Source: Clostridia bacterium (GTDB lineage Bacteria; Bacillota; Clostridia; Saccharofermentanales; Saccharofermentanaceae). From it: a DNA stretch of 52,515 nucleotides. A program made the position numbers and the translations under genes. Location of the stretch: contig JAKSRG010000021.1 of NCBI GenBank assembly GCA_024403735.1, positions 1 through 52,515 of the forward strand. Direction: 5' to 3'. Every line of letters starts with the position of its first letter. Position 1 is the first letter of the stretch. The notes under the pieces were generated by a model, which made no database searches, was not told where the DNA came from, and was given only the letters and a program-made list of their open reading frames with translations. Shown here in pieces: positions 1 to 52,515 of this stretch.

Positions 1-1468
1 CCTCTGCTGATGTGAGTACACCGCCGTTAGCTGCTGTAGCTGCGATAGACTTAGCGTCCATAAGAGCAACTGCTGCGAGCTGTCCGTTACCTGGCTTAGA
101 ACCTTCTCTATTAGGGAAGTTACGTGTAGCGTGACGGATTGAAAGTGCGTTATTAGCTGGAGTATCACCAGCACCGAAGCAAGGTCCGCAGAAAGCTGTA
201 CGGATAATAGCACCAGCATCCATGAGGTCTGCGAGGTAACCCTTACGATCGAGGTCTGTAAATACAGGCTGTGAAGCTGGGTAAATAGAGAGATAGAACT
301 CACCGTTACCGATTGACTTACCCTTGATAGCGTTAGCTGCTTCAACGATTGATGAGTAAGATCCGCCTGAGCAACCACCGATAACACCCTGCTGTACCAT
401 GAGCTTGCCGTTAGAAACCTTATCAAGGAGGTGGAACTCAGCTCTGCCACCTGCAACTTCGTCAGCTGCCTTCTCTGTCTCGCGGAGGATATCCTCGAGG
501 TTCTCGTAGAGCTCGCTGATTGTGTAAGCGTTAGATGGGTGGAATGGAAGAGCGATCATTGGCTTGATCTCTGAGAGGTCAATCTCAAGACATCCATCGT
601 AATATGTAACTGCAGCTGGCTCGAGTGGCTTATAGTCGTCTGCTCTGCCGTGCATTGTGAGGTATGACTTAACATCATCGTCTGTTCTCCAGATTGATGA
701 GAGACATGTTGTCTCAGTTGTCATAACGTCGATACCAATTCTGTAGTCTGTTGTCATTGATGATACACCAGGACCAACGAACTCCATTACCTTGTTCTTT
801 ACGTAGCCGTTCTTGAAAACTTCCTTGATGATTGCGAGTGCAATATCGTGTGGACCTACGCAGAGGCTTGGCTTACCCTTGAGGTAGATAGCTACAACGC
901 CTGGATATGCAACGTCGTATGTCTGCTTCAAAAGCTGCTTTGAGAGCTCACCGCCGCCCTCACCGATAGCCATTGTACCGAGAGCACCGTAACGTGTGTG
1001 TGAGTCTGAACCGAGGATCATCTTGCCGCAGCCTGCGAACATTTCACGCATGTACTGGTGAATAACTGCGATATGAGGTGGAACATAAATACCACCGTAC
1101 TTCTTTGCTGCTGAAAGACCAAAGAGATGGTCATCATCGTTGATAGTACCACCTACTGCACAAAGTGAGTTGTGGCAGCATGTGAGAACATAAGGAAGTG
1201 GGAACTGCTCCATACCAGATGCTCTTGAAGTTTGGATGATACCAACATATGTGATATCATGTGATGCCATTGCGTCGAACTTAATCTTCAATGCATCCAT
1301 ATTATCATTTGTGTTGTGAGCCTTAAGAATACCGTATGCGATAGTACCCTTCTTTGCCTCGTCTTTGTTAGCGGCTACGCCTGAGATTGCCTGCACCTTT
1401 GCAGCTTCAGCCTCTGGAACGATTTCTGTGCCGTTAACAAGATAAACTCCTGAATCGTAAAGCTTCAT
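1..1468 (-). CDS. aconitase-family hydratase (YbhJ-like), 3' part outside window
   Basis: This is the N-terminal 489 codons of an aconitase-superfamily [4Fe-4S] dehydratase; the rest lies beyond base 1. The translation shows the family signatures GSDSHTRYG and [10 protein letters not shown]. The latter has the C-x2-C cluster ligands, and [10 protein letters not shown] precedes it. The start ATG (complement of 1466-1468) follows GGAGG with good spacing. The sequence is closer to the YbhJ-type 'hydratase' group of about 750 residues than to TCA-cycle AcnA, so the substrate is not certain and citrate/isocitrate activity should not be assumed. It diverges from ppaC across a 366-bp gap. A sigma-A-like promoter lies about 60 bp upstream. 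The family call is firm; the exact reaction is not. Confidence 0.85.
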
Positions 1469-1526
1469 TTGTTCGTCCTCCATTAACGTATATTTCCAAT
1501 TAATCAAATCACATTAATCATGTTCA

Positions 1527-1555
1527 AGTTTAGAGTATCGCGCCTAATCTATCAA
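1527..1555 (-). promoter_or_regulatory. sigma-A-type promoter for the aconitase-family gene
   Basis: On the minus strand, TTGATA (1550-1555) and TAAACT (1527-1532) are separated by 17 bp. They match 5/6 and 4/6 of the consensus hexamers. The predicted start lies about 50 nt upstream of the GGAGG ribosome binding site. The rest of the 1469-1834 divergent gap holds a weak hairpin around 1604-1640 and the GTTTTCGAG palindrome; I could not place a convincing ppaC promoter. Confidence 0.5.
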
Positions 1556-1681
1556 GCAGAAATGATGCTATTTTTGGCTCGTTTAAAGATTTTCGATTAT
1601 TTGACCTAAGAAGGGCGAGAATTAAAAAATCTTTTTAGGGTAATTGTCATTGGGGCAGATTATTGATTTGACTGGCGGAGT

Positions 1682-1704
1682 GTTTTCGAGCAGGTCTCGA
1701 AAAC
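1682..1704. repeat. GTTTTCGAG inverted pair (dispersed motif, hairpin form)
   Basis: Two copies of the dispersed 9-mer face each other: GTTTTCGAG, 5-nt loop, CTCGAAAAC, a perfect 9-bp stem. It lies between the divergent aconitase-family and ppaC genes, preceded by GGCGGAGT. The same GGCGGAGTGTTTTCGAG string recurs at 36250. There is no T-tract, so it is not an obvious intrinsic terminator. Confidence 0.7.
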
Positions 1705-1834
1705 GGTCTATGTGTGCATCTTGAATACACGAAACAATCAAAAATCGTAATATTTATAGCGATTTCGCATTTGAAGTTGCGCCCTTTTGACTGTAAAATG
1801 CGTGTGTAAAGAAAAATATAGAGGTATAAGGCTG

Positions 1835-3466: not shown

Positions 3467-3537
3467 TGTTTCGGTTGGGTGCTTATTTGGCGAACCCAGT
3501 TCAGATATTAGATTTAAATTTAGATTTAGTTTTAAGG

Positions 3538-3561
3538 CCAGTCCTTCGGGGCTGGTTTTTT
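3538..3561 (+). terminator. intrinsic terminator of ppaC
   Basis: A 7-bp stem (one G-U pair) closes a TTCG tetraloop at 3545-3548, followed directly by six T. It lies about 70 bp after the ppaC stop. Confidence 0.9.
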
Positions 3562-4060: not shown

Positions 4061-4075
4061 GTATTTTCGAGACTC

Positions 4076-5553: not shown

Positions 5554-5617
5554 ATGCTTTGACTCCTTCGAAAACATTCTTTACACCCAATTATCACACT
5601 ATTCCCCAAACAAAAAC

Positions 5618-8495: not shown

Positions 8496-8564
8496 GCTCG
8501 AAAACGAGATGCAGCTACTTTAAATATTGAGAAAAATGCTCTGGGTGGCAGGGTGTTTTCGAGA
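8496..8564. repeat. inverted pair of the GTTTTCGAG motif between NUDIX gene and xpt
   Basis: CTCGAAAAC at 8497-8505 faces GTTTTCGAG at 8555-8563, the latter in the longer context TGTTTTCGAGATGGTC. The right-hand copy begins 7 bp after the NUDIX stop codon, and the left-hand copy lies in the xpt promoter region. Confidence 0.65.
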
Positions 8565-12068: not shown

Positions 12069-13280
12069 TTACTTATATCTAACCTTCTCGTACTCTTTGG
12101 TGAGATCGCCAAGTTGCTCCTTGCCGAGGTTATCTACTGCTGAAGTAATCTCCTTCGCTGTATAAGACGACTTAATCTCAGCGCCATGTGAGATCGCTTT
12201 GCGGACCTTCTTATAGAATTTCTTTCTTATCTTCATCTCATAGCCGGTACCGAAAACATTAGCTGATCTTCTAAGGAAAGGCTTCCTATCCACACGCTCG
12301 ATGACGTCTGTTACAGCATCAGATGAACCTACAACTTGACGCCTAATATTATTCTTGTCGCCGAACTCATTCATTATTGCTCTGACAATTAAAATAGTGA
12401 ATATTGCTGCAATCGAGATTCCAAAGGTACCCCAAATAAATCTGTATACCCAAGGATTGCTCACAGCCTCTTCCTCTACTATCATCTCTTCACCAGTTTC
12501 CATGAGATTAAGGTCAAGGTCGTCAGTAATCACATCGTCCTGCTTGAGTAATTTGGACATGACTAATCTAATCAAATATGTGAGCCAGTTAGTTATGAAC
12601 TTCCAAGGGAGCATCCAAAGGCAGAAAATAGCTACAGCAAAACCAATAGTAACAACGACAATTGTTTTACGGTTCTGCTTAGATACTTCCTTAACTGGAA
12701 GAACTGATGAACGCATACTGTGGTAGTAGCCGACTTCGAATTCATTAATCTGTCTTGCTACAAAGTAAATAAAGAATGCTAGGAACACGTTAATTACTAG
12801 TCCTGTCGTATCAATCTCACGATCATCGTACATCAAGTATGTGAGGGCGAATTTTACGAGGAAGTTAGTCAAAACAGCGAACAACACGCCATTAATCTTA
12901 ATCCTTCCACTAATTGGCTTCGCTATACTAAGCATCGCATAAACGATGTTCAAAATGTCTAGAATTACTAGCACGAACAAGTGAATTGTCACATTAAAGT
13001 ATGGATAGAAGACAATCGAATAAATTACAAAGAATGCAAAAGACGCAATTACTTTGAAAAAACTTGGGATATTCAGTTGTCTTACTAATGCAGACAATAC
13101 TACAGGGATTGCACCTGACATCATTATCCAGTATGGAACCTCATAGTTTGGGACATATACATCGGCATATGTACAAATCGCGAATGTTGTGAGGAAGAAT
13201 AGTAGCGACGTACAAATCTCGATGATAGATTTATCGAATAAGAGGTTGTTTTCGCGCTCGTTAAGCTTAACATCAGTCAT
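12069..13280 (-). CDS. membrane protein with DUF4129-like C-terminus, MoxR operon
   Basis: A 403-residue integral membrane protein. About six hydrophobic segments occupy residues 20-200, another lies near 208-225, and a third region near 280-300 precedes a basic cytoplasmic tail. The tail (IRKKFYKKVRKAISHG...TAKEITSAV) resembles the DUF4129 domain often found with DUF58 and MoxR proteins and with transglutaminase-like membrane proteins. No transglutaminase catalytic triad is visible. Translation is coupled: the ATG at 13280 overlaps the DUF58 stop by eight bases. GGAGG lies nine nt upstream of it, and only three nt before the alternative ATG at 13286. It is third gene of MoxR-DUF58-membrane protein, a set linked to envelope stress and protein-complex maturation. 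Its specific role is unknown. Confidence 0.75.
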   Translation of the reverse strand: MTDVKLNERENNLLFDKSIIEICTSLLFFLTTFAICTYADVYVPNYEVPYWIMMSGAIPVVLSALVRQLNIPSFFKVIASFAFFVIYSIVFYPYFNVTIHLFVLVILDILNIVYAMLSIAKPISGRIKINGVLFAVLTNFLVKFALTYLMYDDREIDTTGLVINVFLAFFIYFVARQINEFEVGYYHSMRSSVLPVKEVSKQNRKTIVVVTIGFAVAIFCLWMLPWKFITNWLTYLIRLVMSKLLKQDDVITDDLDLNLMETGEEMIVEEEAVSNPWVYRFIWGTFGISIAAIFTILIVRAIMNEFGDKNNIRRQVVGSSDAVTDVIERVDRKPFLRRSANVFGTGYEMKIRKKFYKKVRKAISHGAEIKSSYTAKEITSAVDNLGKEQLGDLTKEYEKVRYK

Positions 13281-14409
13281 GGCCATTCACCTCCAACTTC
13301 TTGAGGTGTGGAGCGATAGTAGCTTCTACAGTCATATTCTTACGAGACATGTCGCCCTTATAACAAGGTAGCACCCAGATGAGGTTCTTGCCCTGCTGCA
13401 GCGCAGTCTCGAGACCTGCTCGAAAACGATCGTCACAATTCGCAGAAATAATAACATTCAAGCTATCTGATACATCACTCAAAATATACTCGTCAATCAG
13501 ACTAAAGAATGGGAGCGCTTCCTTGGTAAGGTCAATTCGCGCGAGGTCAATTCCTCTTTGCTCCATAGAACTAATCTCAGCTGTTTTATCGGCAACTGGG
13601 AGAGAAGTGAGCACATCAAGGCCGTTGGAATAGAAAGCAACTGATATTCCCTGCTCGTAAAGTTCCAACATGAATGAATATGCGATGCTGATTGTTTTCT
13701 CGAGGAGACCATTTGAATTCTTTGTATTATATGGCTCGAGATTAATGAACAGATTAATACGTCTGTTGTTAGTTGAATCATTCTGGTTAACCATGAGGTC
13801 GCCTGTTCGCGCACTGGCCATCCAGTTAACCTGACGCATTGGGTCCCATGGCTGATATTCACGAATTCCAGCCAAGCTAAATGGATCAGTAAGAAGTGTT
13901 CGTCTAGACTGAATATCGCTAAAAGTTACTACCATCAATGTATGAAGTTCGTCGATAGAAAGGCGTTCAGGAAGTACTGTTACGCTAGAATCTGAAGGCA
14001 CAGTCATACCGAGCTTCTGAACAAGGAGAAGGTCAGCTGAACTAACTGTAATACGAGTAAAGGTGTAGTAACCTCGCTTGGTGCAAGTAACCTTAATTCG
14101 TCTTGTATGTCTCGTATATGCGCCCATAGTGAGCATGTCCTCACGATAGAAGTTATCTGTGAGGGCTACATTAGTCATATCGTTAAACTCGATGGCAACT
14201 GGTGTCTCGAATTTAAGGATAAGAAATGGTAATGGAATTCTCTTATTATTCTGAGCTATCTCGACTACCTCGATGGTGTCGCCAGGGTTAGCAATCTTCT
14301 GCGAGAAATGAACATCAACGTCTAATTTGGAGAGACCTTTCTTGGTATAGAAAGCGAGCTCAATGCTGACGAGAATTCCTATGATAATTAGGAATACTAA
14401 TATGGTCAT
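13273..14409 (-). CDS. DUF58 domain protein
   Basis: A 378-residue protein with an N-terminal hydrophobic anchor (MTILVFLIIIGILVSIELAF), a beta-rich middle and the DUF58 signature REYQPWDPMRQVNWMASAR near residue 190. A vWA-like fold follows. Members pair with MoxR AAA+ ATPases, acting as adaptor or substrate-binding partners. The start ATG overlaps the last base of the moxR stop (TAATG), so the two are translationally coupled. The reading frame contains a copy of the dispersed motif embedded in a 19-nt match to the intergenic palindrome at 1682. Molecular function unknown. Confidence 0.87.
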   Translation of the reverse strand: MTILVFLIIIGILVSIELAFYTKKGLSKLDVDVHFSQKIANPGDTIEVVEIAQNNKRIPLPFLILKFETPVAIEFNDMTNVALTDNFYREDMLTMGAYTRHTRRIKVTCTKRGYYTFTRITVSSADLLLVQKLGMTVPSDSSVTVLPERLSIDELHTLMVVTFSDIQSRRTLLTDPFSLAGIREYQPWDPMRQVNWMASARTGDLMVNQNDSTNNRRINLFINLEPYNTKNSNGLLEKTISIAYSFMLELYEQGISVAFYSNGLDVLTSLPVADKTAEISSMEQRGIDLARIDLTKEALPFFSLIDEYILSDVSDSLNVIISANCDDRFRAGLETALQQGKNLIWVLPCYKGDMSRKNMTVEATIAPHLKKLEVNGHD

Positions 14410-15499: not shown

Positions 15500-15577
15500 G
15501 CTCGAAAACACGCTATAAACAGGCGCAAAGTGCTGATACTTATAGTTTTGTAACAATGTTACACGGTGTTTTCGAGA
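15500..15577. repeat. inverted pair of the GTTTTCGAG motif downstream of the GT87-like gene
   Basis: CTCGAAAACA (15501-15510) faces TGTTTTCGAG (15567-15576), in the 227-bp gap between the GT87-like gene's terminator and the moxR start. The sequence between the arms (tataaacaggcg...acaatg) has no other recognisable element. Confidence 0.65.
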
Positions 15578-15616: not shown

Positions 15617-18600
15617 AATGTTGATTGACTTAACTCGTGCCGGATACTTCAAAGTTATCTCCGTGAGCTCATTCGAATCGAGCTTAAATGTCTCTTCATA
15701 AGAGATCATGCGGTCTTCGAGGACTGCCATGTAGCGGATAGTAACTTCGCCTTTTTCAGTAGTCGCGATGTAGAGTGGCTTAGTAGTCACATACTCGTTG
15801 TACTCGATTGTATAATCGTCGGCATCAGCGAGGAAACATGACTTCGCGTCGTCATCGTAGATCATAACGAGCTTGTTATCGTACTCAGGGAATACTGTGC
15901 GGAAATAATCGATGTCATTACATAGCTGAACGTCGTAGCCGACCTCGTGATCGAGGAGACTATCGTTAATTCGCATATCGCTATGAACGCCGTCCATCGA
16001 AGGAGTGTAAATCACCTCTGGGTGGAGTTCGTCGAGCTTGTCATCTGACATAACTTCCCAGATGCAGTGAGCCTTAGTAGACATCCATGAACCAGTAGAT
16101 GACAACAAAGTATCGAACTTGTCGTTGATACCTACTGTTACATATGTGGCGCCTGCGAAAACAAATCCCATCATGAGGATCGCGCATAATCTCTTGAGCT
16201 TATCTAATCTTGAGAAGTAGTGTGCGAGAAGCATTACTACTGAGAAGATAGCCATACTCCAACCAAAGTAGCAGATTGTAGTAGGAACGTAGCCGCCTGT
16301 TGAGTAATCAACTACCCAGCTAACATATACGCCGATAAGCGAATGTGGAATTGCAAATGTCAATGCGAGAAGCACGCCGCTAACTGCAAGAACTGCGAGT
16401 GTTCGATTAGCATCTTCCCTCTTCTTCTTATCAAGTGATGTATAGTGACGGCACGCAAGATAGAATACTGATACAAAGCCAGCTAGTGCAATCACTGCCA
16501 TAATCACACCTCTGATATTGATGTGCTCGCGTAATCCGCTAACAACACGCATATCAAAGAGTGGGAACATACCCATGCTGAGTGTGAAGTAAGTAACGAA
16601 GAAGCGGCCTGGATCCATATCTTCAACGAAGCTTGATACACCAACATTAACAACAGGGTTAATTCTTAAGTATGTCAAGATAATGAGGAAGATTACTGCG
16701 ACAGTAATATGAGGGATTAATGTCACGAAGAACTTAATAACGCGTTTTGTAAACTTAGTCTCTACCTTCATTACATATGAGATAGTGATAACTGCATAGA
16801 TAAGTGAAGATACGATAAATGACTCATATACCTGCATTGACTCGTAGAAAAGGATGAAACTTCCAACAAGTCTTAGGATGTTAAGCTTATACTGCTTATC
16901 GCCCTTTGTTAGGCTATCTTTACGATTAAGATACTCAGAATAGAGATATAGGCCACATACCATGATGAAGAAACCATACATGAAGTCTAATGGATAACAT
17001 GTGATGAGGTTATGCCATACATCAATCTGGAGTAAGCCCCAGAAGCAAAGTGCGAAGGCAAAACCATAATACTTATTAATCTTCTTACCGATAATGTATC
17101 CAAGAAGGGCAATATTAGCACACACAGGAACATACTGCATAAGCCATACGAGGACATAGTTACCCGAACTAGAGATGAGGTATCTGATACCAACAATAAT
17201 TGGGAATATAAATCCAACTCGTCCACGCGCTAGGCCATAAGTACGGCAGGCTTCAAAGCCCTGAGCAAATGGCGAATCACTCACACGAGCAGAGATAAAA
17301 TCTGCGATTGAGTCGTGACAAGCAAGAAGATTACCACGCAAGAAGTAAAGGATAGAAATCACGATAAATACTGTAGATGAAATAGTGATTGCCTTCAAAA
17401 TCTTAGTAGTGCGATCGCTAAGCATAACCTTGCTCTTCTTCTCTTCTGAGATAGCCTTAAGGTCATTAATGCTACAGATGAACTTCTCAACAATGTAGTA
17501 AAGAAGCATTATCAAATAGAGCAAGCAATCGAGAAGAACTGCAATATTTACATCGCTATATTCTGTAGGAATACCAATTGGGAAGCTTGGGAAATAGAAG
17601 TAAGACTTTGGCACAAGAAGTAATGCTGAGATAACAATGTATGGGATATCTCTCTTCATGAGCTTGTCCTTATTCATAAGCATCACGAGAATTGGTGCGA
17701 ATAAGTAGCAAGAGTTATAAAGGTATGAATTAGGAGACAAGAATACCATGAGCGAAGTTAGAATAAGTAACTTCTTCCAAAGTTTCTTCTCCTTTACGAG
17801 GAATGCGAAACCAACGATTGTGAAGAATGCACCTGATGCGAGCCAGATGAGCTTAGTGATATTACCGTGTGGGAGCATACCCATCATTGTGAACATCACA
17901 CCAGCAAGACCAGTTACACCAACAGTGTAGTAAACAGAATAGATGCCACCACCTACACCGCCAAATCCAAGAACGCCCTGGACAAATACGATGCAATTAG
18001 TTGAGTATCTGCCTGCGAAGAAACAGATTGGAATAACTGTTACAACGAGGCCTGTAAAAATTGCTACGAGTGTCTTGTGCCACTTCTTCTCTGTGATATA
18101 CATACCGAGAAGATAGATTGGGTATACCTTAGTAGCGGCAGCAAGTGCAGCGAAGATTGCGCCAAGTGAAGTATCTGGCTTCATCTCTTCGAAAACAGCC
18201 CAGAGAACCATTAGTACGATTGTAACTACAAGATAGTTACCGCGGTCCATCATAAATCTGGATGGTGCGCTGAAGAAGAAAGCTGTAGCAAGAAGCATCG
18301 TGATAATGATGTTGCCTGCTTTATCTAGCGCAGAAAGTGTTCGCTCGCGCTTGTTTTCGAACCATGCGTAGAGGACACATGAGAATAGTAAGAAAATTCC
18401 ATAAACCGCGAAGAGGATAATAAGCGACCTCATATACGCTGGATCATCGAATGCTGTCTGGAGGTTCATCGGATTATAGATGCTCCAGTCATTCATGAGG
18501 GCGAAGATCTTCGCGAACGCGAGAATGATTGGTGGGTAATTACTTAGTCTTGAAATGTATGGATTATTGTCCTTCAAGGCATAGTTAATCGTCGCAAAAT

Positions 18601-22677: not shown

Positions 22678-22770
22678 GCTCGAAAACACTTGCTTAAACA
22701 CTAGTTGGCGGAACGCCGCAGACGCTAGTCTACTGAACACAGCCCACTGAGGCGCAGGTTGTTTTCGAGA
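22678..22770. repeat. inverted pair of the GTTTTCGAG motif between HAD and ThDP genes
   Basis: CTCGAAAACACTTG (from 22679) faces TTGTTTTCGAGATGGTC (from 22759), about 80 bp apart, inside an otherwise continuous minus-strand glycan operon. The right arm lies 14 bp after the HAD stop. Confidence 0.65.
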
Positions 22771-29441: not shown

Positions 29442-29465
29442 TCTATATATTATTTGACCGAATCG

Positions 29466-29508
29466 AAAACCTCCTACCCTAGGAAACATTCCTGGAATAG
29501 GAGGTTTT
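29466..29508. terminator. bidirectional terminator between convergent genes
   Basis: A perfect 11-bp outer stem (AAAACCTCCTA / TAGGAGGTTTT) with partial inner pairing; the A and T tracts of the stem suit both directions. It separates the metallophosphoesterase (+) from the OhrR-type regulator (-). Confidence 0.85.
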
Positions 29509-32241: not shown

Positions 32242-32353
32242 AATTAATCTCCTTAGAATATAAACTCAAATGGTGGCCTATAGCTCACCTCTTTTGAGTT
32301 ATATATGTGGGGCGGTCGGAGATAATTAAGTGAATTTTTTGATTTTCTCGAAA

Positions 32354-32387
32354 ACAAAAAACAACGCCAAGCGAAATCACTTGGCGT
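32354..32387 (-). terminator. intrinsic terminator of the heterodimeric ABC exporter operon
   Basis: A perfect 8-bp stem (ACGCCAAG / CTTGGCGT) with an 8-nt loop, followed by TGTTTTTTG on the minus strand. A GTTTTCGAG copy (complement of 32347-32355) starts within the T-tract. Confidence 0.88.
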
Positions 32388-32413: not shown

Positions 32414-34237
32414 TCAGCCGTTAGCTGACTTCCATGTCTCGAGTTCCTCGAACTGGCGCATGTAAAGGCTATAGTACTCACCCTTTGCTTTCATGAGTTC
32501 TCTGTGGTTACCGCGCTCAACAATCTTACCATCAGAAACAACGAGGATTGTATCTGCGCCTACTACTGTAGAAAGACGATGCGCGATGATGAAAGATGTT
32601 CTATCAGATGTCAAAGCTTCGATAGCTTCCTGAACTGCGTGTTCTGTCACAGAGTCAACTGAACTAGTAGCTTCATCAAGGATGAGGATCCTAGGGTCAG
32701 AAAGGAGTGCACGAGCAATTGATAGTATCTGCTTCTCACCAGTTGAGAGGAAGTCACCACCCTCACCTAACTCGGTATCAAGACCATGGTCGAGCTTATC
32801 AAGCATCTTATCTGCACCTACAGTCTTAAGTGCCGACAAAATCTCATCGTCAGTCGCATCTTCTTTACCGTACTTGAGGTTATCACGAACTGAACCAGAA
32901 AAGAGATATGGTGTCTGGAGCACGTAGCCGATATTACTATGAAGCCACTTCAGAGATCTATCGTTAGCAGGTCTACCATCGATCAAAACTTCACCCTTAG
33001 TTGGTTCGAAGAAGCGGCAGACGAGGTTAACTAGTGTAGACTTACCAGCGCCAGTCTCACCTACAATTGCGACACTCTGGCCCTTATTAACCTTGAGGTT
33101 AAAGTGATCAAGGATAATCTCTTCTCCATCAGGATACTTGAATGTTACATCCTTAAACTCGACATCACCAACGAGCTCCTCGAAGCTCTCATACTTAGGG
33201 TTAAATGAATCGCCATACTTCTCAATAACTTCAGGCTTATCAAATACTTCACCAGTAGTTCCCATAAGCTCAAGATAACGCTCAATATTTACACCTACTG
33301 AAATCATTCTTGTTACAGTATTAACAATAAACTGAATTGGCTCGAGCATGCCAAGCGCATATGACATGAAGATTGATAATGTACCAATCTCTACAAGGCC
33401 CTCGTAAGTCAAATTGCCACCCTTCCAGAGGACAAGTGCGAGTGACATTGTCGAGATCAAAGTCATGATAGATACGAAGAGTGCACTATGGTGATTGGTC
33501 TTAACGCTCTTCTTGTACATCTTATCTGTATCAACATGGAACTCGTCATTAATCTTCTCTTCGATAGCAAGTGACTTAATCGACTTAACGCCTGTGATAC
33601 CTTCATTAATGTCTGAAGTAATCTGCGAATTAAGTTCACGAACCTGTCTATTATGGATAAGAAGCTTCTTATTAAAAATAACAATAACAAGTGTCGCAAT
33701 CGGTAACATCACAAGGAGATAAATAGCTAATCTCACATCGATTATCATCATCACAATAATACCGAACAGGAGATAACTACCCCACCATACAACATCCATA
33801 ATCTGCCATGACACGAGCTCGCCAATCTTACCTGTATCACTCATAACACGAGCGTGAATATAACCAACATTGTGGCTGTTGAAGTAAGATAGTGACACCT
33901 GTTGGAGATGCGCGAATGCATTGTTACGAAGGTCCCTATCCATGTATAGCTCGAGCTTCGCACATAGCATAACGTTGATATAGTTCGTCGCACATTGAAG
34001 CGCTGTTATCACGAGATACGCAGCGATAAAGAACCAGATTGTATCGAGTGTCTTATCACCAATGAAGTGATTAATTGCATAGCGATTGAATAGTGGATAA
34101 ATCGCATCGAAAACACTATAGATCAATCCAGCTATAATCATCCATATAAATCTAGTTTTATACTTCCTAACATATGGCCATAACTTAGGTAGTCCAAACA
34201 AAGGAAGCTTGACTTGTTTTTCTTTATTTTCCATCAT
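32414..34237 (-). CDS. ABC exporter half-transporter, catalytically competent Walker B subunit
   Basis: A 607-residue half-transporter with six N-terminal membrane helices and a nucleotide-binding domain. Walker A is GETGAGKST, Walker B LILDEATSSVD with the catalytic Glu. The signature is LSTGEKQ rather than LSGGQ. This pattern marks one half of a heterodimeric exporter (TM287/288, LmrCD, BmrCD type), where each subunit supplies part of two unequal ATP sites. Its start overlaps the partner's stop by four bases (ATGA), so the pair is made together. Substrates of such pumps are usually drugs or lipids; none can be assigned here. Confidence 0.92.
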   Translation of the reverse strand: MMENKEKQVKLPLFGLPKLWPYVRKYKTRFIWMIIAGLIYSVFDAIYPLFNRYAINHFIGDKTLDTIWFFIAAYLVITALQCATNYINVMLCAKLELYMDRDLRNNAFAHLQQVSLSYFNSHNVGYIHARVMSDTGKIGELVSWQIMDVVWWGSYLLFGIIVMMIIDVRLAIYLLVMLPIATLVIVIFNKKLLIHNRQVRELNSQITSDINEGITGVKSIKSLAIEEKINDEFHVDTDKMYKKSVKTNHHSALFVSIMTLISTMSLALVLWKGGNLTYEGLVEIGTLSIFMSYALGMLEPIQFIVNTVTRMISVGVNIERYLELMGTTGEVFDKPEVIEKYGDSFNPKYESFEELVGDVEFKDVTFKYPDGEEIILDHFNLKVNKGQSVAIVGETGAGKSTLVNLVCRFFEPTKGEVLIDGRPANDRSLKWLHSNIGYVLQTPYLFSGSVRDNLKYGKEDATDDEILSALKTVGADKMLDKLDHGLDTELGEGGDFLSTGEKQILSIARALLSDPRILILDEATSSVDSVTEHAVQEAIEALTSDRTSFIIAHRLSTVVGADTILVVSDGKIVERGNHRELMKAKGEYYSLYMRQFEELETWKSANG

Positions 34238-36018
34238 TCTTCCTCTTGCACACTTCTTTGTAATTCATAAATCTTGCTATAAATTCCGTTGTTCTTGATG
34301 AGGGTCTCGTGATTACCAGTTTCTTTTATCTTGCCCCCATCGAAAACATAGATGTTGTCTGCTCCCATGATCGTTGTAATTCGGTGGGAGATGATAATAA
34401 CTGTAGCGTCCTTACTAGCCTTCTTAAGACCTTTACGGATAGCAGCGTCTGTCTTAGAGTCAACAGCTGACAAAGAGTCGTCGAAGATCATAATCTCTGG
34501 CTTTCTGATGAGCATCTGCGCGATTGCTGCACGCTGCTTCTGACCACCAGATAGTGTAACTCCCTTCTCACCTACATATGTCTCGAAGCCCTCTTTGAAT
34601 TTATTAATAGACTGCTTAAGGCACGCTGTCTCAACTACTTCATCGATATCAGCGTCACTTGCGTTATCGCTAGCAATCTTGATGTTGTTCTTGAGACTTC
34701 TGGAGAACAAATATGGCTCCTGAAGGACAAAACCAATATGACTTCGAAGGCTCCTTCTCTTAATCTTGGAGATATCAACTCCGTTAATAGTGATGCGGCC
34801 TTCTGAAGGATTATAAAGGCCATCAAGGAGCAACATGAGTGTTGATTTACCTGAACCAGTTCCACCAAGGATACCAATAGTCTGGCCCTTCTTGATTGTC
34901 ATATTCACATTCTCGAGGACATTCTTAGCATCGTACGCGAAACTAACATTCTGGAATTCAATGTCACCATAATCAGGAAATTCAACTGAATCTTCACTAT
35001 CAAGTTCAATCTCAGACTTAATGATGTAATTAAGACGATCGATTGATACGCCAGACTTACTCATATCAGAGATAACGCGACCAAGCTCCATAATAGGCTG
35101 AATGATCATGAGGTTATAAGCGATGAAAGATACGAACTGACCAGCAGTCATATAGTCGTTAACAGTGAGATATGAGCCGAGCGCCAAGATTGTAATCATC
35201 TGAGCATTCTTAACGAAATCGCTGATTGTCCAGAACTTCGCAAGGATACTCATCATCTGAATCCAGTGACCGATATAAACTTCATTCTTCTCTTCAAATC
35301 GTTTGCGCTCATACATCTCGCGACCGAAAGCGCGAACTACTCGTACACCTGCTAGGTTCTCCTGAGCAGTAGATGAGAGGCGACCTTCCTCGGCATCAAC
35401 CTTCTCGAATTTCTCGCCTACTTTGCCATGGAAAATGAGCGAATAAACGACTACTACAAGGATAAAGAAGCACGCGCACAAAGTGAGGATTACATTAACT
35501 CGGAGCATGAAATAAAGCGCGAGAAGAATAGTCGCGATCATGCGGCAAAGGTTAACGAGCTGCTCCTGGATAAAGTTCCTGATCATATCAACATCTGATG
35601 TACAGCGCTGGATGATGTCACCTGTTTTATTAATATCCTGCCACTTATATGGGAGCTTTAGGATGTGCTCGAAAAGGGTGTTACGCATTCTTCTAGCGAG
35701 GTTCTCACCTCCGAGTGAATTGAACATTCTGAAGGCATATCTACTAATCGCACTTAAGACGCCAATGATAACTACTGCGAGCGCCACAATCCAGAGATGT
35801 GACATGATGTAGTCTCTACCTCCTAGATTATTCGCAAAGTCAATAATGAACTTAGGTGTCTGGCTAATATCATCAATAATGTAGTCTACTGTATAACCCA
35901 TAATCTTTGGATTAACGAGGTCAAAGATTACCTGAAGGAACACAAAAACAATCGCAAGCGCGAAGTATCGCTTGCAACCCTTAAGGAAATAGCTAATTGT
36001 CCCTAACCTAGTCTTCAT
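34234..36018 (-). CDS. ABC exporter half-transporter, degenerate Walker B subunit
   Basis: A 594-residue partner with six membrane helices, Walker A GGTGSGKST and a canonical LSGGQKQ signature. Walker B reads IMIFDDSLSAVD: Asp replaces the catalytic Glu, so its own site is degenerate. This is complementary to the downstream subunit, as expected for a heterodimer. The start was placed at the ATG at 36018, five nt after GGAG in GAGGAGAG. The longer reading from 36048 includes the ribosome binding site. It is first gene of the pair. A TATAAT lies 30 bp upstream on the minus strand without a good -35. Confidence 0.92.
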   Translation of the reverse strand: MKTRLGTISYFLKGCKRYFALAIVFVFLQVIFDLVNPKIMGYTVDYIIDDISQTPKFIIDFANNLGGRDYIMSHLWIVALAVVIIGVLSAISRYAFRMFNSLGGENLARRMRNTLFEHILKLPYKWQDINKTGDIIQRCTSDVDMIRNFIQEQLVNLCRMIATILLALYFMLRVNVILTLCACFFILVVVVYSLIFHGKVGEKFEKVDAEEGRLSSTAQENLAGVRVVRAFGREMYERKRFEEKNEVYIGHWIQMMSILAKFWTISDFVKNAQMITILALGSYLTVNDYMTAGQFVSFIAYNLMIIQPIMELGRVISDMSKSGVSIDRLNYIIKSEIELDSEDSVEFPDYGDIEFQNVSFAYDAKNVLENVNMTIKKGQTIGILGGTGSGKSTLMLLLDGLYNPSEGRITINGVDISKIKRRSLRSHIGFVLQEPYLFSRSLKNNIKIASDNASDADIDEVVETACLKQSINKFKEGFETYVGEKGVTLSGGQKQRAAIAQMLIRKPEIMIFDDSLSAVDSKTDAAIRKGLKKASKDATVIIISHRITTIMGADNIYVFDGGKIKETGNHETLIKNNGIYSKIYELQRSVQEEE

Positions 36019-36248: not shown

Positions 36249-36270
36249 AGGCGGAGTGTTTTCGAGATAG
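36249..36270. repeat. dispersed motif copy with extended flank
   Basis: GGCGGAGTGTTTTCGAG followed by ATAGTCG, directly after the stop codon of the ABC permease (minus strand). The first 17 bases are identical to those at 1674-1690 by eye. Confidence 0.6.
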
Positions 36271-40478: not shown

Positions 40479-41609
40479 TTACTCAACGTACATGATTGTC
40501 TCGAGTTCATCGAGACCATAATGTCTGAATGAAATTCTATAGTCTGGATGCATCTCAAGGATTAAGTCAGCCAAGATAACGAAGTCCTCTGGCTTATGAT
40601 ATACAGACACAGCCATTCTAGGACGATTAGCCTTAATAAGTTTCTTAGCGCCTAATAGAGCATCGTACTCAGCACCTTCAACATCGAACTTAATAAAAGT
40701 AACGCGCTTATCCTTAAGGACATCATCAAGAGCTACAGTCTCAATAGTCTGAACACCTTCCATTCCTGCTGCCTCTGCTTCTTCCTTTGTGATAATACAA
40801 GAATCTTCGAAACCCTTTGAAATGAAATATGCCTTCTCATTAGCTTTTGAAGTTCCATATGGATAAAGGTCGCACTTACCAAGTGTCTCTAGAACTTTCT
40901 TGCACTTCTCATAGTTAACTGGGTCAGCTTCGAAACTATAAATATGCTCGTATCCTTTCTGACCGCACCAACCTGCAAATCTGAAGCATGAGCCACCATC
41001 GTAGCAGCCACAATCAACGAACACCTCGTTTTCGAGCGGGTCAAAGTAATCAAAATACTGAGATGAATTATTTCTCCAGTCGTATACACCCATTGCGATG
41101 CTATTCTCTGGAATGCCTGCCTTCTCGATTAATCTTCGTCTAGTGCTATCAGCAACATCCTTCTTGGAATATGAGATAACAACATTCTTGTCGCTATAAA
41201 GTGCACGATTACTTATGAGTTCCTCTTCGCTGATGATCTTAATTCCAGTCTGAGGGTCGATGCCACACTTAGCCTCATCAGGCTCAATAAATGCATCGAT
41301 ATTAACGCCAAAGATTTGGAAACGTCTAGCAAGATAGTGACCAGCACCACCAGCACCATAGATGAGGCAGTGGTCGAACTTGTGGATCTTCTCAGCATAG
41401 ACCTCGATGTCGCTACTAAGATTACGATACTTAGGATCAATATTCATGAGATATGAGAGGTCACCTGTTAATGCGTACAAGCTTCTAACCTCAAAGATTT
41501 TCTTAGATATCTCATCATTAAGATGCGAATAAACATTTCTAGCTTTGGCAATGAAATCAGAATCCTGATTGAAGGAATTTCTGGCCATTGTTACGTAATC
41601 TATACCCAT
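40479..41609 (-). CDS. FkbM-family SAM-dependent methyltransferase
   Basis: A 376-residue protein. The N-terminal 170 residues contain a Rossmann-like segment (CLIYGAGGAGHYLARRF) of the kind seen in surface-glycan modification proteins. The C-terminal half is the FkbM methyltransferase: SAM-binding EVFVDCGCYDGGS, YSFEADPVNYEKC, and the FIKFDVEGAEYDAL signature. These enzymes O-methylate sugars and polyketides. It probably modifies a surface glycan together with the U32-like protein downstream. The start ATG has GAGAGGT eleven nt upstream, slightly far. Acceptor unknown. Confidence 0.87.
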   Translation of the reverse strand: MGIDYVTMARNSFNQDSDFIAKARNVYSHLNDEISKKIFEVRSLYALTGDLSYLMNIDPKYRNLSSDIEVYAEKIHKFDHCLIYGAGGAGHYLARRFQIFGVNIDAFIEPDEAKCGIDPQTGIKIISEEELISNRALYSDKNVVISYSKKDVADSTRRRLIEKAGIPENSIAMGVYDWRNNSSQYFDYFDPLENEVFVDCGCYDGGSCFRFAGWCGQKGYEHIYSFEADPVNYEKCKKVLETLGKCDLYPYGTSKANEKAYFISKGFEDSCIITKEEAEAAGMEGVQTIETVALDDVLKDKRVTFIKFDVEGAEYDALLGAKKLIKANRPRMAVSVYHKPEDFVILADLILEMHPDYRISFRHYGLDELETIMYVE

Positions 41610-41774: not shown

Positions 41775-43391
41775 TTAGAGGAGTGGTGTCTCGTTGAACT
41801 GTGTACGCTCACTCTTTGTAACACGGATAAACATGTTATGGAGGAGGTTAACACTCGAGAGGATAACTTCACCCTGATTTAGCTTACGAACATGCTTGAT
41901 AGAGAAGTCATCGAGATGGCTCTCAACTGCCTTAATCTCATCGTTAAGCATAAGTCTGTGGATAAGGAGTGTACCAATCTGACCAAAGAGAATTGGTGAT
42001 ACGTCCTTAGGGTTCTGAGTTGTGAGGTAAAGGAAGATACCATTCTTACGACCTTCTCTTGCAAGAAGTGTAAGTCCACCATGGAAATCCTTATCTGAAT
42101 ATCTAGACTTAGCATATCTATGTACTTCATCGATGAAGAATACGAATGGATTAATGTTCTCCTTAGAAATAACGAAGTTACTGATAAGGTCGATAACCAT
42201 TCCACCAACACCTTCAGATGCACCAAGGTAAGATGTATCAATATAAAGGCTAACGTTAGGAAGTCTCAAGAACTCCTCAATAACATCGAGAAGGTTATAC
42301 ATAGCTGGATCGTTAGAGAAGAATGTCAAGAATCTTGTGTTAGTCATCTGATACTGAATCTTCTGAATGAGTGAAGCATTTGAGTTAGCCTTAAGAACAT
42401 CGTAACGATATCTGAAGTTATAATCGTTATCTCTATCTGGCTCACATACTGACTCCTGCTGGATCTGCTCAGGAAGAAGTTCGATATTGAAGTCTGTATC
42501 TTCCTTGGATACAGAAGCCAAGTTCTCCTGAACTTCATCGATATTCTCACCAACCTTTGGATAGTAAGAATTGTCGCCAATCTTCTTCATATAACGAAGT
42601 GATGTGATAGCCTCAGCAAGTACTGCACCCTGGCTGCTGTTCTCAGTCTCGAAGAGCTTCTCCCACTGATCCATTGTGAGCTTGCCTGGTGAAATTGTTG
42701 TATCAACACCAAGTGTAACCTTAGTAATCTCATCGTCCTTAAATGCATTCTTATACTCACCTGTTGGGTCAATGATGAGAGCCTTACGTTTAGTAGAAAC
42801 TACCTTATCAAGAATAGCAAGAGCAGTTGTAGACTTACCACTATTTGTAGCACCGATACACATAAGGTGACGGTTGAAAAGTGTGCTAGGCTTGAGTACT
42901 ACATCAGCATGAGACTTATCCATGTATGTAGCGAATGCTGGAAGTGATTCTTCCTCTCTTGTAGAGAATTCCAATGAACGAATGAAAAGCTCATAAATCT
43001 CATCTGTAGCAAGATATACCTTATCTGAGATACCAAGTGTCTTAAAACCAGCGAGCTCAAATCTATTAGAGCTTGGTGTCATAAGAGCGATTGTATCAAT
43101 ACTTACTTCATGATAATCGTTACGCTTTTCATCAGCTGAAGTCATCTCGAAAACACTCTTTCTTGAAGCCTTGTTCTCGAATACTTCGCCCAAGAACAAA
43201 CCAGCTGTTGATTCAACGATTACGAAATAGTTAATTGTATTTGGAAGAAAAGATTCATTAAATTTACTTCTATCTGCCATCAATGATGGATTATCAATCT
43301 GTGCGATACTACAGCTTCTGTATACCTGTGTTACCTTACCCAAATAATAATCCTGAAGATTAACACCCTGATATAGTGTTTCTAGTGTCAT
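41775..43391 (-). CDS. HerA-like (DUF87) FtsK/HerA-superfamily ATPase
   Basis: A 538-residue ATPase. The N-terminal 90 residues are beta-rich, as in the HAS barrel of HerA. Walker A is GATNSGKST (180-188), Walker B FVFFIDEVHRYA, and TTQNPKDVSP serves as sensor. Hexameric HerA proteins translocate along DNA and in bacteria often pair with a nuclease (NurA, DUF4297) or SIR2 in phage defence. No nuclease or SIR2 gene is adjacent here. The only neighbour on the same strand is a Gly/His-rich membrane protein 96 bp upstream. The start is the ATG at 43391, five nt after GGGGGAGG; the reading from 43433 has that site inside. It lacks a visible partner, so the function is open. Confidence 0.85.
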   Translation of the reverse strand: MTLETLYQGVNLQDYYLGKVTQVYRSCSIAQIDNPSLMADRSKFNESFLPNTINYFVIVESTAGLFLGEVFENKASRKSVFEMTSADEKRNDYHEVSIDTIALMTPSSNRFELAGFKTLGISDKVYLATDEIYELFIRSLEFSTREEESLPAFATYMDKSHADVVLKPSTLFNRHLMCIGATNSGKSTTALAILDKVVSTKRKALIIDPTGEYKNAFKDDEITKVTLGVDTTISPGKLTMDQWEKLFETENSSQGAVLAEAITSLRYMKKIGDNSYYPKVGENIDEVQENLASVSKEDTDFNIELLPEQIQQESVCEPDRDNDYNFRYRYDVLKANSNASLIQKIQYQMTNTRFLTFFSNDPAMYNLLDVIEEFLRLPNVSLYIDTSYLGASEGVGGMVIDLISNFVISKENINPFVFFIDEVHRYAKSRYSDKDFHGGLTLLAREGRKNGIFLYLTTQNPKDVSPILFGQIGTLLIHRLMLNDEIKAVESHLDDFSIKHVRKLNQGEVILSSVNLLHNMFIRVTKSERTQFNETPLL

Positions 43392-43487
43392 GTCTACCTC
43401 CCCCGCAAGTCCATGTGACTCGATAAAAAACATTATGTACTGATTATAATTTACGTCAATGTAAATTGATAGTTACAACTTGATTAT

Positions 43488-47022: not shown

Positions 47023-48087
47023 ATGAACCTACCAATAATTATTCCAGCATATGAACCAGACGAACGTCTTTTGGAACTACTAGATACACTTATCGTTGGT
47101 AATAAGAAGATTATCATCGTTAATGATGGTAGTGGTGATAAGTATGCTGAAATTTTTACTAAAGCTCTCGCTAAGATTGAACCTTATGGTGGAGTTCTTC
47201 TCGTTCACGATATCAATCGTGGTAAGGGGCGTGCGCTCAAGACCGCCTTCAAATATGTAATCGAGAACATTCCAGATGCTATAGGTGTAATCACTGCAGA
47301 TTCAGATGGACAGCATACTTCAGAATGCATCAACATGGTTGCAGATGAATTCATCAAGTATCCTAATTGCCTTGTATTAGGAGTTAGATGTTTCGATGGA
47401 GAAGGTATTCCATGGAAGAGTAGATTTGGTAACGACATGACAATCAAGACCATGCGTTTTGTATCAGGTCTAAATATCAGCGATACACAGACCGGCCTTC
47501 GAGCAATCCCTCTCGCCTTCATGAAGGAACTGGTAGACTTTGGTGGCGATAGATTTGAATTCGAGACACAGATGTTACTCGAGACTATCGATCGTTATGA
47601 GATTAGAGAAGTTAAAATCTCTACTATTTACGAATCAAAGGATAACCATCAGACACATTTCAATCCAATTAAGGATTCAATTAAGATATATAAGGTTCTT
47701 GGTAAGCAGTTCCTACACTATCTTATTGCGTCTGGTAGTTCATTCGTGCTAGATATCATCCTCTTCTATATCTTCTGTAAGGCATTCGCTAGTTTTGAAG
47801 ACTACATTGCAATCGCAACTGTAATAGCAAGAGTATGTTCTGCTATCTTTAATTACGCAATTAATTACACAAAAGTATTCAAGAGCAAGGAGACTATACT
47901 CAAGTCAGCACTTAAATACTTTGGTCTAGCTGTTATTCAGATGAGTTGTAGCGCATTACTTGTAACTATAGGAGTTAGATTAACTCACGCTAATGAAGTT
48001 CTTATCAAGATAATCGTTGATACAATCCTCTTCTTTATTAGCTTCAAGGTTCAGCAGCGCCTTGTTTTCGCGAAGAAAGAAAAATAA
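47023..48087 (+). CDS. GT2-GtrA fusion: glycosyltransferase with flippase-like domain
   Basis: A 354-residue fusion. Residues 1-215 are a family 2 glycosyltransferase: IIIPAYEPDE, IIVNDGSGD, VITADSDGQHT and the RKGRALK-like NRGKGRALKTAF. Residues 225-350 are a GtrA domain with four helices (YLIASGSSFVLDIILFY, FNYAINYTKVF, the C-terminal FKVQQRLVF). It would both load a sugar on polyprenyl phosphate and help it across the membrane, tasks split between two genes in the 15.6-25.8 kb operon. The ATG at 47023 has AGGGAG five nt upstream. The longer frame from 46972 overlaps the preceding gene and was rejected. Third gene of the operon. Confidence 0.9.
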   Translation: MNLPIIIPAYEPDERLLELLDTLIVGNKKIIIVNDGSGDKYAEIFTKALAKIEPYGGVLLVHDINRGKGRALKTAFKYVIENIPDAIGVITADSDGQHTSECINMVADEFIKYPNCLVLGVRCFDGEGIPWKSRFGNDMTIKTMRFVSGLNISDTQTGLRAIPLAFMKELVDFGGDRFEFETQMLLETIDRYEIREVKISTIYESKDNHQTHFNPIKDSIKIYKVLGKQFLHYLIASGSSFVLDIILFYIFCKAFASFEDYIAIATVIARVCSAIFNYAINYTKVFKSKETILKSALKYFGLAVIQMSCSALLVTIGVRLTHANEVLIKIIVDTILFFISFKVQQRLVFAKKEK

Positions 48088-49817: not shown

Positions 49818-49819
49818 TA

Positions 49820-50025: not shown

Positions 50026-50048
50026 CTAAGAAAACGTGAATAACCAAC

Positions 50049-50106
50049 AAAAGAGCTATCCATATTTCAAATCCATATGAAGGATTGGAATATGATAGCT
50101 CTTTTT
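50049..50106. terminator. long bidirectional terminator
   Basis: AAAGAGCTATC pairs with GATAGCTCTTT, and inner CATATT/AATATG and AATCC/GGATT extend it to about 22 bp. It ends in TTTTT on the plus strand. It separates convergent yeiH-type (+) and aldo/keto reductase (-) genes. Confidence 0.88.
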
Positions 50107-50124
50107 CAACGCCTTAATTCTCTA

Positions 50125-51264: not shown

Positions 51265-51276
51265 AAATCATTCTCC

Positions 51277-51957
51277 TTAATATAAATAGTCTGCTAACCA
51301 ATTAGTAATTGTTTCTTCGCTTGTTCCTGCTGCAAATCTTTTACCTTCAACCCATATCACATTCGAACTCACAAGTTCATGAAGGTGATCATCACTCGTT
51401 CCAATATCGCTACTTGCAGATGTGCAAAACGGAATGATTGTCTTATTCGAGAAATCATAACTTTCAAGAAAAGTATCCACAATTCTTGGAGCCTGTCCCC
51501 ACCAGATAGGGTACGCAAGAATAATCATACTGTACTGGTCCATATTCGCTACCGTACCTACAATCTCTGGTCTAGATGATGTATCATTCTGCTCAATTGA
51601 AGTTCTACTTTCTGAATTGCCGTAATCGATATCTTCATCAGTATAAGGAATCTTCGCCTCAATCTCGAAAACATCCGCCCCACAATAATCTGCTGCGTAA
51701 AGGGCAAGTTCTTCAGTATTTCCCGTCCTCGAGAAATACACAACTAATATGTTACTATCAGAGGTTCTATCGTGTGTCTCTTTACCCTCATTAATAGCAG
51801 GCTCAACATCAGTAGTCTCACCACCATTAGAATTAGCAACTGTTGTCTGTGCTTCATCCATATTTCCGTCTTTGACATCAGCTTGCTTCTCACTTGAACA
51901 AGATGTCATGACCATCGCGAAAACAACACTCAAAGCCATCGCTAATGCTTTCTTCAT
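51277..51957 (-). CDS. flavodoxin-domain lipoprotein
   Basis: A 226-residue lipoprotein. The signal peptide ends at a lipobox with Cys20 (VMTSC), followed by an acidic, low-complexity linker of about 45 residues. Then a flavodoxin fold begins with ILVVYFSRTGNTEE (FMN phosphate loop, residues 70-83) and has the LAYPIWWGQAPRIV and FCTSASSDIGTS loops. Flavodoxins are usually cytoplasmic; a secreted, lipid-anchored form suggests extracytoplasmic electron transfer. The start ATG at 51957 has AAGGTG six nt upstream; a GTG at 51966 overlaps that site. It lies between two aldo/keto reductase genes, so the three may form one redox route. Confidence 0.9.
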   Translation of the reverse strand: MKKALAMALSVVFAMVMTSCSSEKQADVKDGNMDEAQTTVANSNGGETTDVEPAINEGKETHDRTSDSNILVVYFSRTGNTEELALYAADYCGADVFEIEAKIPYTDEDIDYGNSESRTSIEQNDTSSRPEIVGTVANMDQYSMIILAYPIWWGQAPRIVDTFLESYDFSNKTIIPFCTSASSDIGTSDDHLHELVSSNVIWVEGKRFAAGTSEETITNWLADYLY

Positions 51958-51983
51958 TCCAATCACCTTATCTATTCCAACCT

Positions 51984-52515
51984 TTACTTACCATTTTGCG
52001 CCATAACTCCAACAAGTGCATGTGGCACATAGAGTTCTTCAAGATAACTAATCTCTTCATTAGTAAGAGTAAAATCAACTGCCTTAACTGCTGTATCTAC
52101 ATGTGATGTCTTCGTAGCACCAACTACAGGTGAAGTAACCTTTGTAAGAAGCCATGCCAAAGATACCTCTGACATTGATACACCTCTCTTTTCAGCTATC
52201 TCAAGAACTCGCTCAATAATAGCACTATCTGTCTGTGCTGTCTTATCGTATTTGAACTTAGCATAATTATCTTGTTCAAGTCTTGCTGATGTCTCGCCTG
52301 GTTTTCGAGATAGTCGTCCACTCGCTAATGCACTATATGGTGTCATTGCAATATTCTGATCGTAACAAAATGGCGCCATCTCACGTTCCTCTTCCCTTGC
52401 GATTAAGTTGTAGTGACCCTGAATTGATACGAACTCTGCTAGTCCATTAGCTCTAGCATAGAAGTTCGCCTTGGCTAGCTGCCATGCATAACAGTTAGAG
52501 ATAGCGATATATCTT
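51984..52515 (-). CDS. aldo/keto reductase, 5' end outside window
   Basis: The C-terminal 176 residues or so of an aldo/keto reductase; the frame is open to the window edge, so the N-terminus is missing. Recognised from RYIAISNCYAWQLAKA, EFVSIQGHYNLIAREEER, MTPYSALASGRL (NADP-binding region), and VSLAWLLTKVTSPVVGATKTSH (C-terminal cofactor loop). No Fe-S motif is present, unlike the gene two places downstream. The TAA is 17 bp before the flavodoxin ribosome binding site region. A GTTTTCGAGATAGTCG copy lies within the frame at 52311. Confidence 0.9.
   Translation of the reverse strand, partial: RYIAISNCYAWQLAKANFYARANGLAEFVSIQGHYNLIAREEEREMAPFCYDQNIAMTPYSALASGRLSRKPGETSARLEQDNYAKFKYDKTAQTDSAIIERVLEIAEKRGVSMSEVSLAWLLTKVTSPVVGATKTSHVDTAVKAVDFTLTNEEISYLEELYVPHALVGVMAQNGK

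Follow-up and report, generated by a model that had tools for sequence, protein, structure and literature searches.

The 9-mer GTTTTCGAG forms the core of a longer motif that recurs throughout the genome of a Clostridia bacterium; a probable role of this motif, which would be new to Clostridia, is that of a DNA uptake sequence. It was noticed in the window, that is, the whole analyzed stretch of 52,515 nucleotides (contig JAKSRG010000021.1 of assembly GCA_024403735.1), where a sequence-only reading had counted 20 copies of the 8-mer TTTTCGAG on the two strands. We confirmed this number; the mean in 100 dinucleotide shuffles was 2.25, in line with the roughly two copies that had been expected by chance, and none of the shuffles reached 20. 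Eighteen of the listed positions were right and two were off by 10 (25016 and 52312, with true starts at 25006 and 52302). Eleven of the 20 copies are intergenic by our own open reading frame (ORF) calls, as had been claimed, and 17 extend to GTTTTCGAG, versus 0.28 expected from dinucleotide shuffles. The long form TGTTTTCGAGATGGTC, thought to occur several times, is exact at 2 places only (from 8554 and 22760); the remaining extended copies vary at the three bases preceding GTC.

Genome-wide excess and the extended motif

The genome that contains the window (G000; 2,655,260 bases, 59 contigs, 99.5% complete) comes from a separate species near Saccharofermentans, since the manganese-dependent inorganic pyrophosphatase of the window, which matches 51 loci, shares 61-70% identity with the nearest of them, from Saccharofermentans sp. 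metagenome-assembled genomes, 'Ruminococcaceae bacterium KHP2', and similar rumen/gut Clostridia. Counts near expectation elsewhere in the genome, or an excess in this window only, had been named as grounds for dropping the observation. Instead, GTTTTCGAG occurs 478 times (250 + 228 by strand) versus 47 times (32 + 15) for the reversed pattern, and the excess runs throughout the 2.66-Mb genome.

The full motif spans ~22 bp, gCAGnnTGTTTTCGA(G/T)nnGGTC, and is sharpest in intergenic DNA, where the consensus, free of codon effects, reads gCAGnnTGTTTTCGA(G/T)(A/C)(A/T)GGTC followed by A-rich DNA. Flank profiles are near background beyond about -7..+20, leaving the conserved ~22 bp plus the A-rich tail. 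The extended form GTTTTCGAGNNNGTC has 143 copies in G000, versus 1 for its control, and 0-9 copies per genome in the 187 others of the order that were searched, including 84 other genomes of the genus; the extended motif is unique to the species of G000.

A weight matrix was trained on 450,515 bases (the window plus 20 other stretches) and controlled with reversed sequence; hard thresholds were used, a first soft-assignment search having drifted into codon structure. At 10% false discovery, training yielded 194 sites, among them 80 exact 9-mers, 58 GTTTTCGAT, and 13 GTTTTCGCG. At a score of at least 14, the training set held 177 sites in 450 kb (reversed control, 10) and 418,000 held-out bases held 164 (reversed control, 7), i.e., 392/Mb, the same density as in training. 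Scores of at least 20 were reached by 153-158 sites/Mb in G000 versus 5-63 in relatives. Extrapolating from a third of the genome, we estimate 700 to 1,200 genuine sites in G000 after background. The 341 sites in 868,515 bases comprised 267 coding and 74 intergenic ones; of the first 177, 47 were intergenic, and 89 lay in sense and 41 in antisense orientation within coding sequence, intergenic sequence being 9% of the DNA. Neighbors at most 120 bases apart (n = 28; ~14 close pairs of any kind expected at random) were inverted in 27 cases and direct in 1 (binomial p 2e-7). Among coding sites with a score of at least 16, 44 of 198 were alignable to sampled relatives, and there the residues at sites were conserved to the same degree as neighboring ones (0.52 versus 0.54 in sense, 0.49 versus 0.49 in antisense).

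Codon usage does inflate the sense counts. GTT TTC GAG encodes Val-Phe-Glu, and the bare 9-mer sense count overstates the motif because relatives also show a sense-strand excess. On the antisense strand, GTTTTCGA[GT] numbered 73 versus 6.0 in codon-shuffled genes in G000, 27 versus 5.5, 15 versus 2.8, and 0 versus 0.5 in the sister species G099, G062, and G075, and 23 versus 11, 14 versus 7.3, 3 versus 2.8, and 2 versus 2.5 in the more distant G043, G005, G007, and G016; 17 pooled pil loci had 2 versus 3.2. The extended pattern GTTTTCGA.....TC occurred 56 times in sense (3.2 codon-shuffled) and 43 times in antisense (1.2) in G000, and was at most 7-fold over in sense, with small counts, in other genomes. 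Intergenic GTTTTCGA numbered 79 versus 3.3 expected in G000, compared with 13 versus 1.3 in G043, 8 versus 0.9 in G005, 3 versus 0.5 in G007, and 2 versus 0.3 in G016, some of these within repeats. The antisense and extended sites of G000 are beyond the codon background shared with relatives. Relatives rich in GTTTTCGAG (238 copies in G005, 230 in G016, 218 in G007) were rejected as carriers of the motif; their counts are mostly sense codon background, because the extension is not fixed and the antisense excess is just 0.8- to 2.1-fold (G016, G007, G005, G043). The observation from the window is thus real, and is stronger than first described in one way (a 22-bp species-unique motif, with a related motif in sister species) and weaker in another (an inflated bare 9-mer count).

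Sister-species motifs and competence genes

A PilT tree covering 42 of 85 genus species united G000, G075, G096, G099, and G062 in one clade (support 100/98) with G000 branching first, and grouped G005, G043, G007, and G016 together outside it. Motifs were fitted to antisense-coding and intergenic sequence only, with codon-shuffled sequence as the control and a cut-off that allowed 20% control hits, counting palindromic TTTTCGAAAA copies on both strands. The G000 fit gave 289 strand hits (control, 56). G099 yielded ttTTTTCGARAAga..aa with 215-267 strand hits (control, 41-52), 62-74 of them intergenic, and G062 a similar motif with 103-108 (control, 19-21), 27-29 of them intergenic. We relied on these fits rather than on an all-strand fit of G099 (465 sites), whose control ignored codon phase. 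The G000 motif and those of the two sisters have a common TTTTCGA heart and different flanks: a G000-form seed did not converge in G099 or G062, nor did sister-form seeds in G000. The same approach gave no motif in G007 plus G016 or in 17 pooled pil loci. G005 and G043 are not counted as carriers because their fits were mostly antisense coding (intergenic hits 2/62 in G005; 5/83, 1/23, 10/20, and 1/62 in G043).

The density of TTTTCGARAA was 313/Mb in G075, for which the evidence consists of counts only, 307 in G099, 254 in G062, 116 in G005, 71 in G043, 64 in G016, 55 in G000, 32 in 15 pooled loci, and 26 in G007; G096 had 2 copies, in a sample of 11.7 kb that is too small for a density. The next relatives, G013 and G021, showed no 9-mer excess (20 versus 47 and 17 versus 49 control). 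Within the clade TTTTCGA was kept at the same place in 13 of 58 aligned site-species pairs, a figure that has no matched control. The long, flank-specific motifs were found only in G000 and its sisters, and a weak excess of TTTTCGA extends beyond the clade. The simplest reading would make the sister TTTTCGARAA motif another dialect of one ancestral specificity, with room for a broader ancestral habit.

The sequence-only reading had proposed a search for competence genes, and ComEC, ComEA, and type IV pilus genes are present in G000. ComEC was found in 83 of the 85 genus genomes (46 of the 46 good ones), and the G000 copy (C1:208007-209827) holds three matrix sites, of which two match the 9-mer exactly. 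ComEA (SLBB plus helix-hairpin-helix) was found in 82 of the 85, G000 included; a second ComEA-like match on C6 was discarded as the helix-hairpin-helix of a Tex-like protein. The PilT family scored over its cut-off in 78 of the 85 genomes. The pilus cluster of G000 contains pilD, pilB, pilT, pilC, pilM, pilN, and a pilO-like gene, with two N-methylated pilins nearby.

All five clade species in the tree (G000, G099, G062, G075, G096) encode, near pilMNO, a pilin ending in CxxC..CxxC, a zinc-ribbon pattern; the idea that this pilin is exclusive to G000 was dropped, as sister species carry one too. The G096 copy escaped the initial pilin pattern and was found by ORF inspection, and the final search was run without that pattern. 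Among 21 other species, pilins were seen in the pil loci of 19 and a prepilin-like ORF with CxxC..CxxC in none; in G013 and G021 the cysteine tail is looser. A search of 5.8 billion proteins returned ten homologues besides the query, and in their alignment C130, C153, and C156 were invariant and C133 was present in 10 of 11 rows. A fold search of the PDB with the model of this pilin gave no match at E 0.001. From the match of lineages, our guess is that the zinc-ribbon-tailed pilin is a candidate reader of the motif.

Proposed role and alternative explanations

The initial likening of the motif to uptake sequences or to Chi and FtsK-orienting polar sequences (KOPS) found support in its first half: density, presence on both strands, occurrence in coding and intergenic DNA, inverted pairs, a graded longer consensus, sister motifs, and competence-type genes all fit. 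The second half gained no support, as the intergenic sites flanked by co-directional genes run with gene direction in 26 cases and against it in 25. Some polarity is nevertheless compatible with the data, because the replication origin is unmapped and strand counts (plus:minus) by contig were 34:27, 25:16, 15:10, 5:18 (C23), and 11:16.

An uptake sequence would be a tag on free DNA that is bound by a pilus protein, leading to preferential uptake of DNA of the cell's own kind. The tag reader may be a surface pilin, the candidate being the zinc-ribbon-tailed pilin; PilB and PilT would extend and retract the pilus, and ComEA and ComEC would bring one strand in. Recombination of imported fragments could then spread and preserve the tag (molecular drive). 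The inverted pairs, mostly behind stop codons, could form transcript hairpins, perhaps a tolerated by-use as for neisserial uptake sequences.

In an unlikely alternative, an abundant cytoplasmic DNA-binding protein (a nucleoid organizer, or a factor of chromosome segregation or of recombination) would bind the motif, which would then play no part in uptake. Such a protein would suit the graded consensus and the large number of sites on the two strands, as it would the avoidance of gene starts, with 5% of intergenic sites at most 30 bases from a start versus 23% of random intergenic positions. The strand imbalance on C23 (5 plus, 18 minus) also favors it, though sense coding sites track gene direction. 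Against this alternative, the number of sites of known nucleoid organizers runs from tens to the low hundreds, and the intergenic sites show no polarity relative to genes (26:25). The 27:1 ratio of inverted to direct pairs and the changed flank around one heart resemble instead the uptake sequences described in the excerpted text of Frye 2013.

An RNA role, in which inverted pairs behind genes form hairpins for the termination or protection of transcripts and the single copies arise as a by-product, seems improbable. Intergenic sites do lie at most 100 bases from a stop codon in 87% of cases, versus 61% at random, and the 16 intergenic inverted pairs of at most 100 bases fold with their flanks at -11 to -34 kcal/mol, values that have no shuffled control. 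A TTTT run at most 20 bases past the second arm was found in 3 of the 16, but the other 13 have no T run, most sites are coding, 41 of the first 177 are antisense, and single copies of an RNA element would need no fixed 22-bp DNA consensus.

Codon or codon-pair usage (GTT TTC GAG/GAT, Val-Phe-Glu/Asp) combined with a general TTTTCGA habit of the genus is less probable still. Sense GTTTTCGA[GT] in relatives is 2.1 to 8 times that in codon-shuffled genes, which this explanation would predict, as it would the abundant 9-mers and the small intergenic excesses of the relatives. It leaves the intergenic excess of G000, its 12-fold antisense and 37-fold extended-form excesses, and an extension unique to one species to be accounted for, and the extended motif rules out codon usage as the sole cause. 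Part of the sister-species signal may nevertheless come from codon usage or the TTTTCGA habit.

A dispersed repeat family spreading by transposition is disfavored and very improbable: relatives do have such repeats, but conservation in G000 stops after the ~22 bp and A-rich tail, pair distances range from 9 to 82 bases with both pair orientations present, and the majority of copies lie within genes. Two repeat words were discarded as dialects, namely TTGTTGACGA, which in G007 is part of a long dispersed repeat, and GTTTTCGATAC, whose 84 copies in G005 are clustered about 52 bp apart. The G007 family (L085-L089) has many TTGTTGACGA units in mixed orientation, and the G005 clusters on C1 (e.g., 355602-355793 and 714747-714940) are likewise of mixed orientation, with spacings of about 26 and 52 bp. 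Other intergenic repeat words were TACGGCTA/AATACGGC in G043 (L090-L094, L146-L165) and AGGTTGGAA in G099 (L186-L195).

Several points weigh against an uptake role. Sense GTTTTCGAG in G000 (61 versus 8.5 codon-shuffled, 7.2-fold) lies inside the range of its relatives (2.4- to 15-fold), and the G000 matrix scores sites in these as well (per Mb, 79 in G007, 133 in G016, 156 in G005, 167 in G075, 199 in G062, 200 in G043, and 217 in G099). With near-copies dropped, intergenic bare TTTTCGA was 3.7 times expectation in G000, 5.9 in G099, and 5.0 in G062, and outside the clade 4.3 in G005, 3.9 in G043, 3.7 in G016, and 2.8 in G007 (1.2 in 17 pooled loci); TTTTCGAAAA in G005 numbered 11 versus 0.7. 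Given this enrichment of bare TTTTCGA in four non-clade species, the sister motifs may stem from a sequence habit of wider reach. The Com and pilus genes are genus-wide and therefore do not explain the confinement of the long motif, and the structure model of the candidate pilin is of low quality (mean predicted local distance difference test score, 49.9). Competence in Gram-positive bacteria is generally held to be unspecific. Neisseriaceae and Pasteurellaceae are named as the only families known to use uptake motifs in the excerpted text of PMC12616744.

Depletion of the motif in mobile DNA is suggestive only. C7:1-20000 (L073) was the sole stretch of 42 (window included) with 0 sites at the cut-off. 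It encodes a Tn916-type integrase, a MobA/VirD2-like relaxase, which is the genome's only PF03432 match, an AAA ATPase, and a phage-type regulator, and is an integrated mobilizable element at a contig end. Overdispersion of the counts (mean 7.8 sites per 20 kb, variance 15.7) limits what one element can say, and the best sub-threshold score in C7:1-20000, 13.3, is just under the cut-off; this too counts against an uptake role. A genome search for more mobile elements gave one relaxase and three integrase matches, the C10 integrase being near a contig end and uninformative.

Among the entries listed by keyword searches of an open-access library, there was no report of an uptake sequence from Firmicutes, Bacillota, Clostridia, or Gram-positive bacteria, and none of Saccharofermentans with competence or of the motif letters. 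We advance more tentatively, as a possibility short of probable, that these tags represent a third independent invention of uptake sequences and the first outside Proteobacteria, in a Clostridia clade with TTTTCGA-centered tags of at least two dialects, read by a zinc-ribbon-tailed type IV pilin that arose in the same lineage. With only two families described (excerpts of PMC12616744), the way in which such systems arise is an open question. A strong-tag species, sisters with related tags, relatives with the same machinery and without the long motif, and a lineage-matched candidate reader would make it possible to test where uptake specificity comes from. If the reading is true, self-recognizing natural transformation runs in anaerobic Clostridia communities.

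Sites in the window and comparison with known systems

Table 1. Copies of the motif in the window, with weight-matrix scores (cut-off, 14).
Feature	Position	Strand	Score	Remark
Inverted pair, intergenic	1682..1704	+ 1682-1690, - 1696-1704	26.5, 15.5	Foldable as GTTTTCGAG-5 nt-CTCGAAAAC hairpin
Inverted pair, intergenic	8497..8563	- 8497-8505, + 8555-8563	17.2, 29.4	Flanking genes co-directional
Inverted pair, intergenic	15501..15576	- 15501-15509, + 15568-15576	22.0, 24.0	
Inverted pair, intergenic	22679..22769	- 22679-22687, + 22761-22769	16.0, 28.0	
Motif copy, intergenic	29462..29470	-	19.9	GTTTTCGAT form
Motif copy, intergenic	32347..32355	-	18.9	
Motif copy, intergenic	36258..36266	+	25.4	Stop codon 9 bases away
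Bare TTTTCGAG core, intergenic	4064..4071	+		Under motif score cut-off
Bare TTTTCGAG core, coding	35668..35675	-		Under motif score cut-off
Weak motif copy, coding sense	812..820	-	15.1	GTTTTCAAG
Motif copy, coding sense	5567..5575	-	19.4	GTTTTCGAA
Motif copy, coding antisense	13248..13256	+	21.7	GTTTTCGCG
Motif copy, coding sense	13419..13427	-	24.1	GTC extension
Motif copy, coding antisense	18353..18361	+	16.9	GTTTTCGAA
Motif copy, coding sense	25006..25014	-	14.3	ATTTTCGAG
Motif copy, coding antisense	27400..27408	-	18.7	
Motif copy, coding antisense	31675..31683	+	26.6	GTC extension
Motif copy, coding sense	34106..34114	-	15.8	GTTTTCGAT
Motif copy, coding sense	34339..34347	-	18.3	GTTTTCGAT
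Motif copy, coding antisense	41028..41036	+	23.2	GTC extension
Motif copy, coding sense	43146..43154	-	18.7	
Motif copy, coding sense	48064..48072	+	16.4	GTTTTCGCG
Motif copy, coding sense	51664..51672	-	18.1	
Motif copy, coding sense	51916..51924	-	22.1	GTTTTCGCG
Motif copy, coding antisense	52301..52309	+	18.5	GTC extension

A second over-represented word, CAGCAAGAG(T), occurs at several places in the window, with 8 copies of the 10-mer ACTCTTGCTG/CAGCAAGAGT, and CTCTTGCTG numbered 12 versus 0.26 expected in the intergenic DNA of G000. Further 8-mers are over-represented there, CCTTAAGG with 12 strand counts and TCCTCGAG with 14 in the window, and could be coding. The window also encodes a HerA-like helicase (41775-43433), with weak matches to anti-phage HerA models that lie under the cut-offs of those models.

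Short over-represented chromosomal motifs include Chi and KOPS, but these are polar; the intergenic sites of G000 are 26:25 relative to genes, with the origin unmapped. Repetitive extragenic palindromes (REP) and miniature inverted-repeat transposable elements (MITE) are dispersed and form inverted pairs between genes, as the motif does, whereas the G000 motif has no longer repeat unit and sits for the most part in genes. The anatomical match to the two known families of uptake sequences is close. The uptake signal sequence (USS) of the Pasteurellaceae (AAGTGCGGT in Haemophilus influenzae) likewise has a 9-bp core within a longer, looser motif and an A-rich stretch downstream, and hundreds of sites per Mb on both strands in coding and intergenic DNA; AT-rich segments downstream of the USS core are described in excerpts of PMC12616744. 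Its sequence is unrelated, and the host here is a Clostridia bacterium whose tag is known from sequence alone.

The DNA uptake sequence (DUS) of the Neisseriaceae (ATGCCGTCTGAA, read by the minor pilin ComP) shares with the G000 motif inverted pairs behind genes and related variants in sister species, excerpts of PMC3630211 reporting DUS dialects, inverted pairs located at terminators, and a total of about 1,900 DUS in 2.2-2.3 Mb. A sparser motif in acquired DNA, suggestive only in G000, would be a further likeness (excerpts of PMC3630211 and PMC7371117, the latter reporting drops in genomic islands). The DUS sequence is again unrelated, G000 has about 390 sites/Mb versus one DUS per 400-1100 bp (excerpts of PMC7371117), and the candidate pilin of G000 has a zinc-ribbon-like tail and is not known to be kin to ComP. 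We do not claim homology of the G000 tag to either system, because DUS and USS are themselves unrelated to one another, as reviewed in the excerpted text of PMC5031613.

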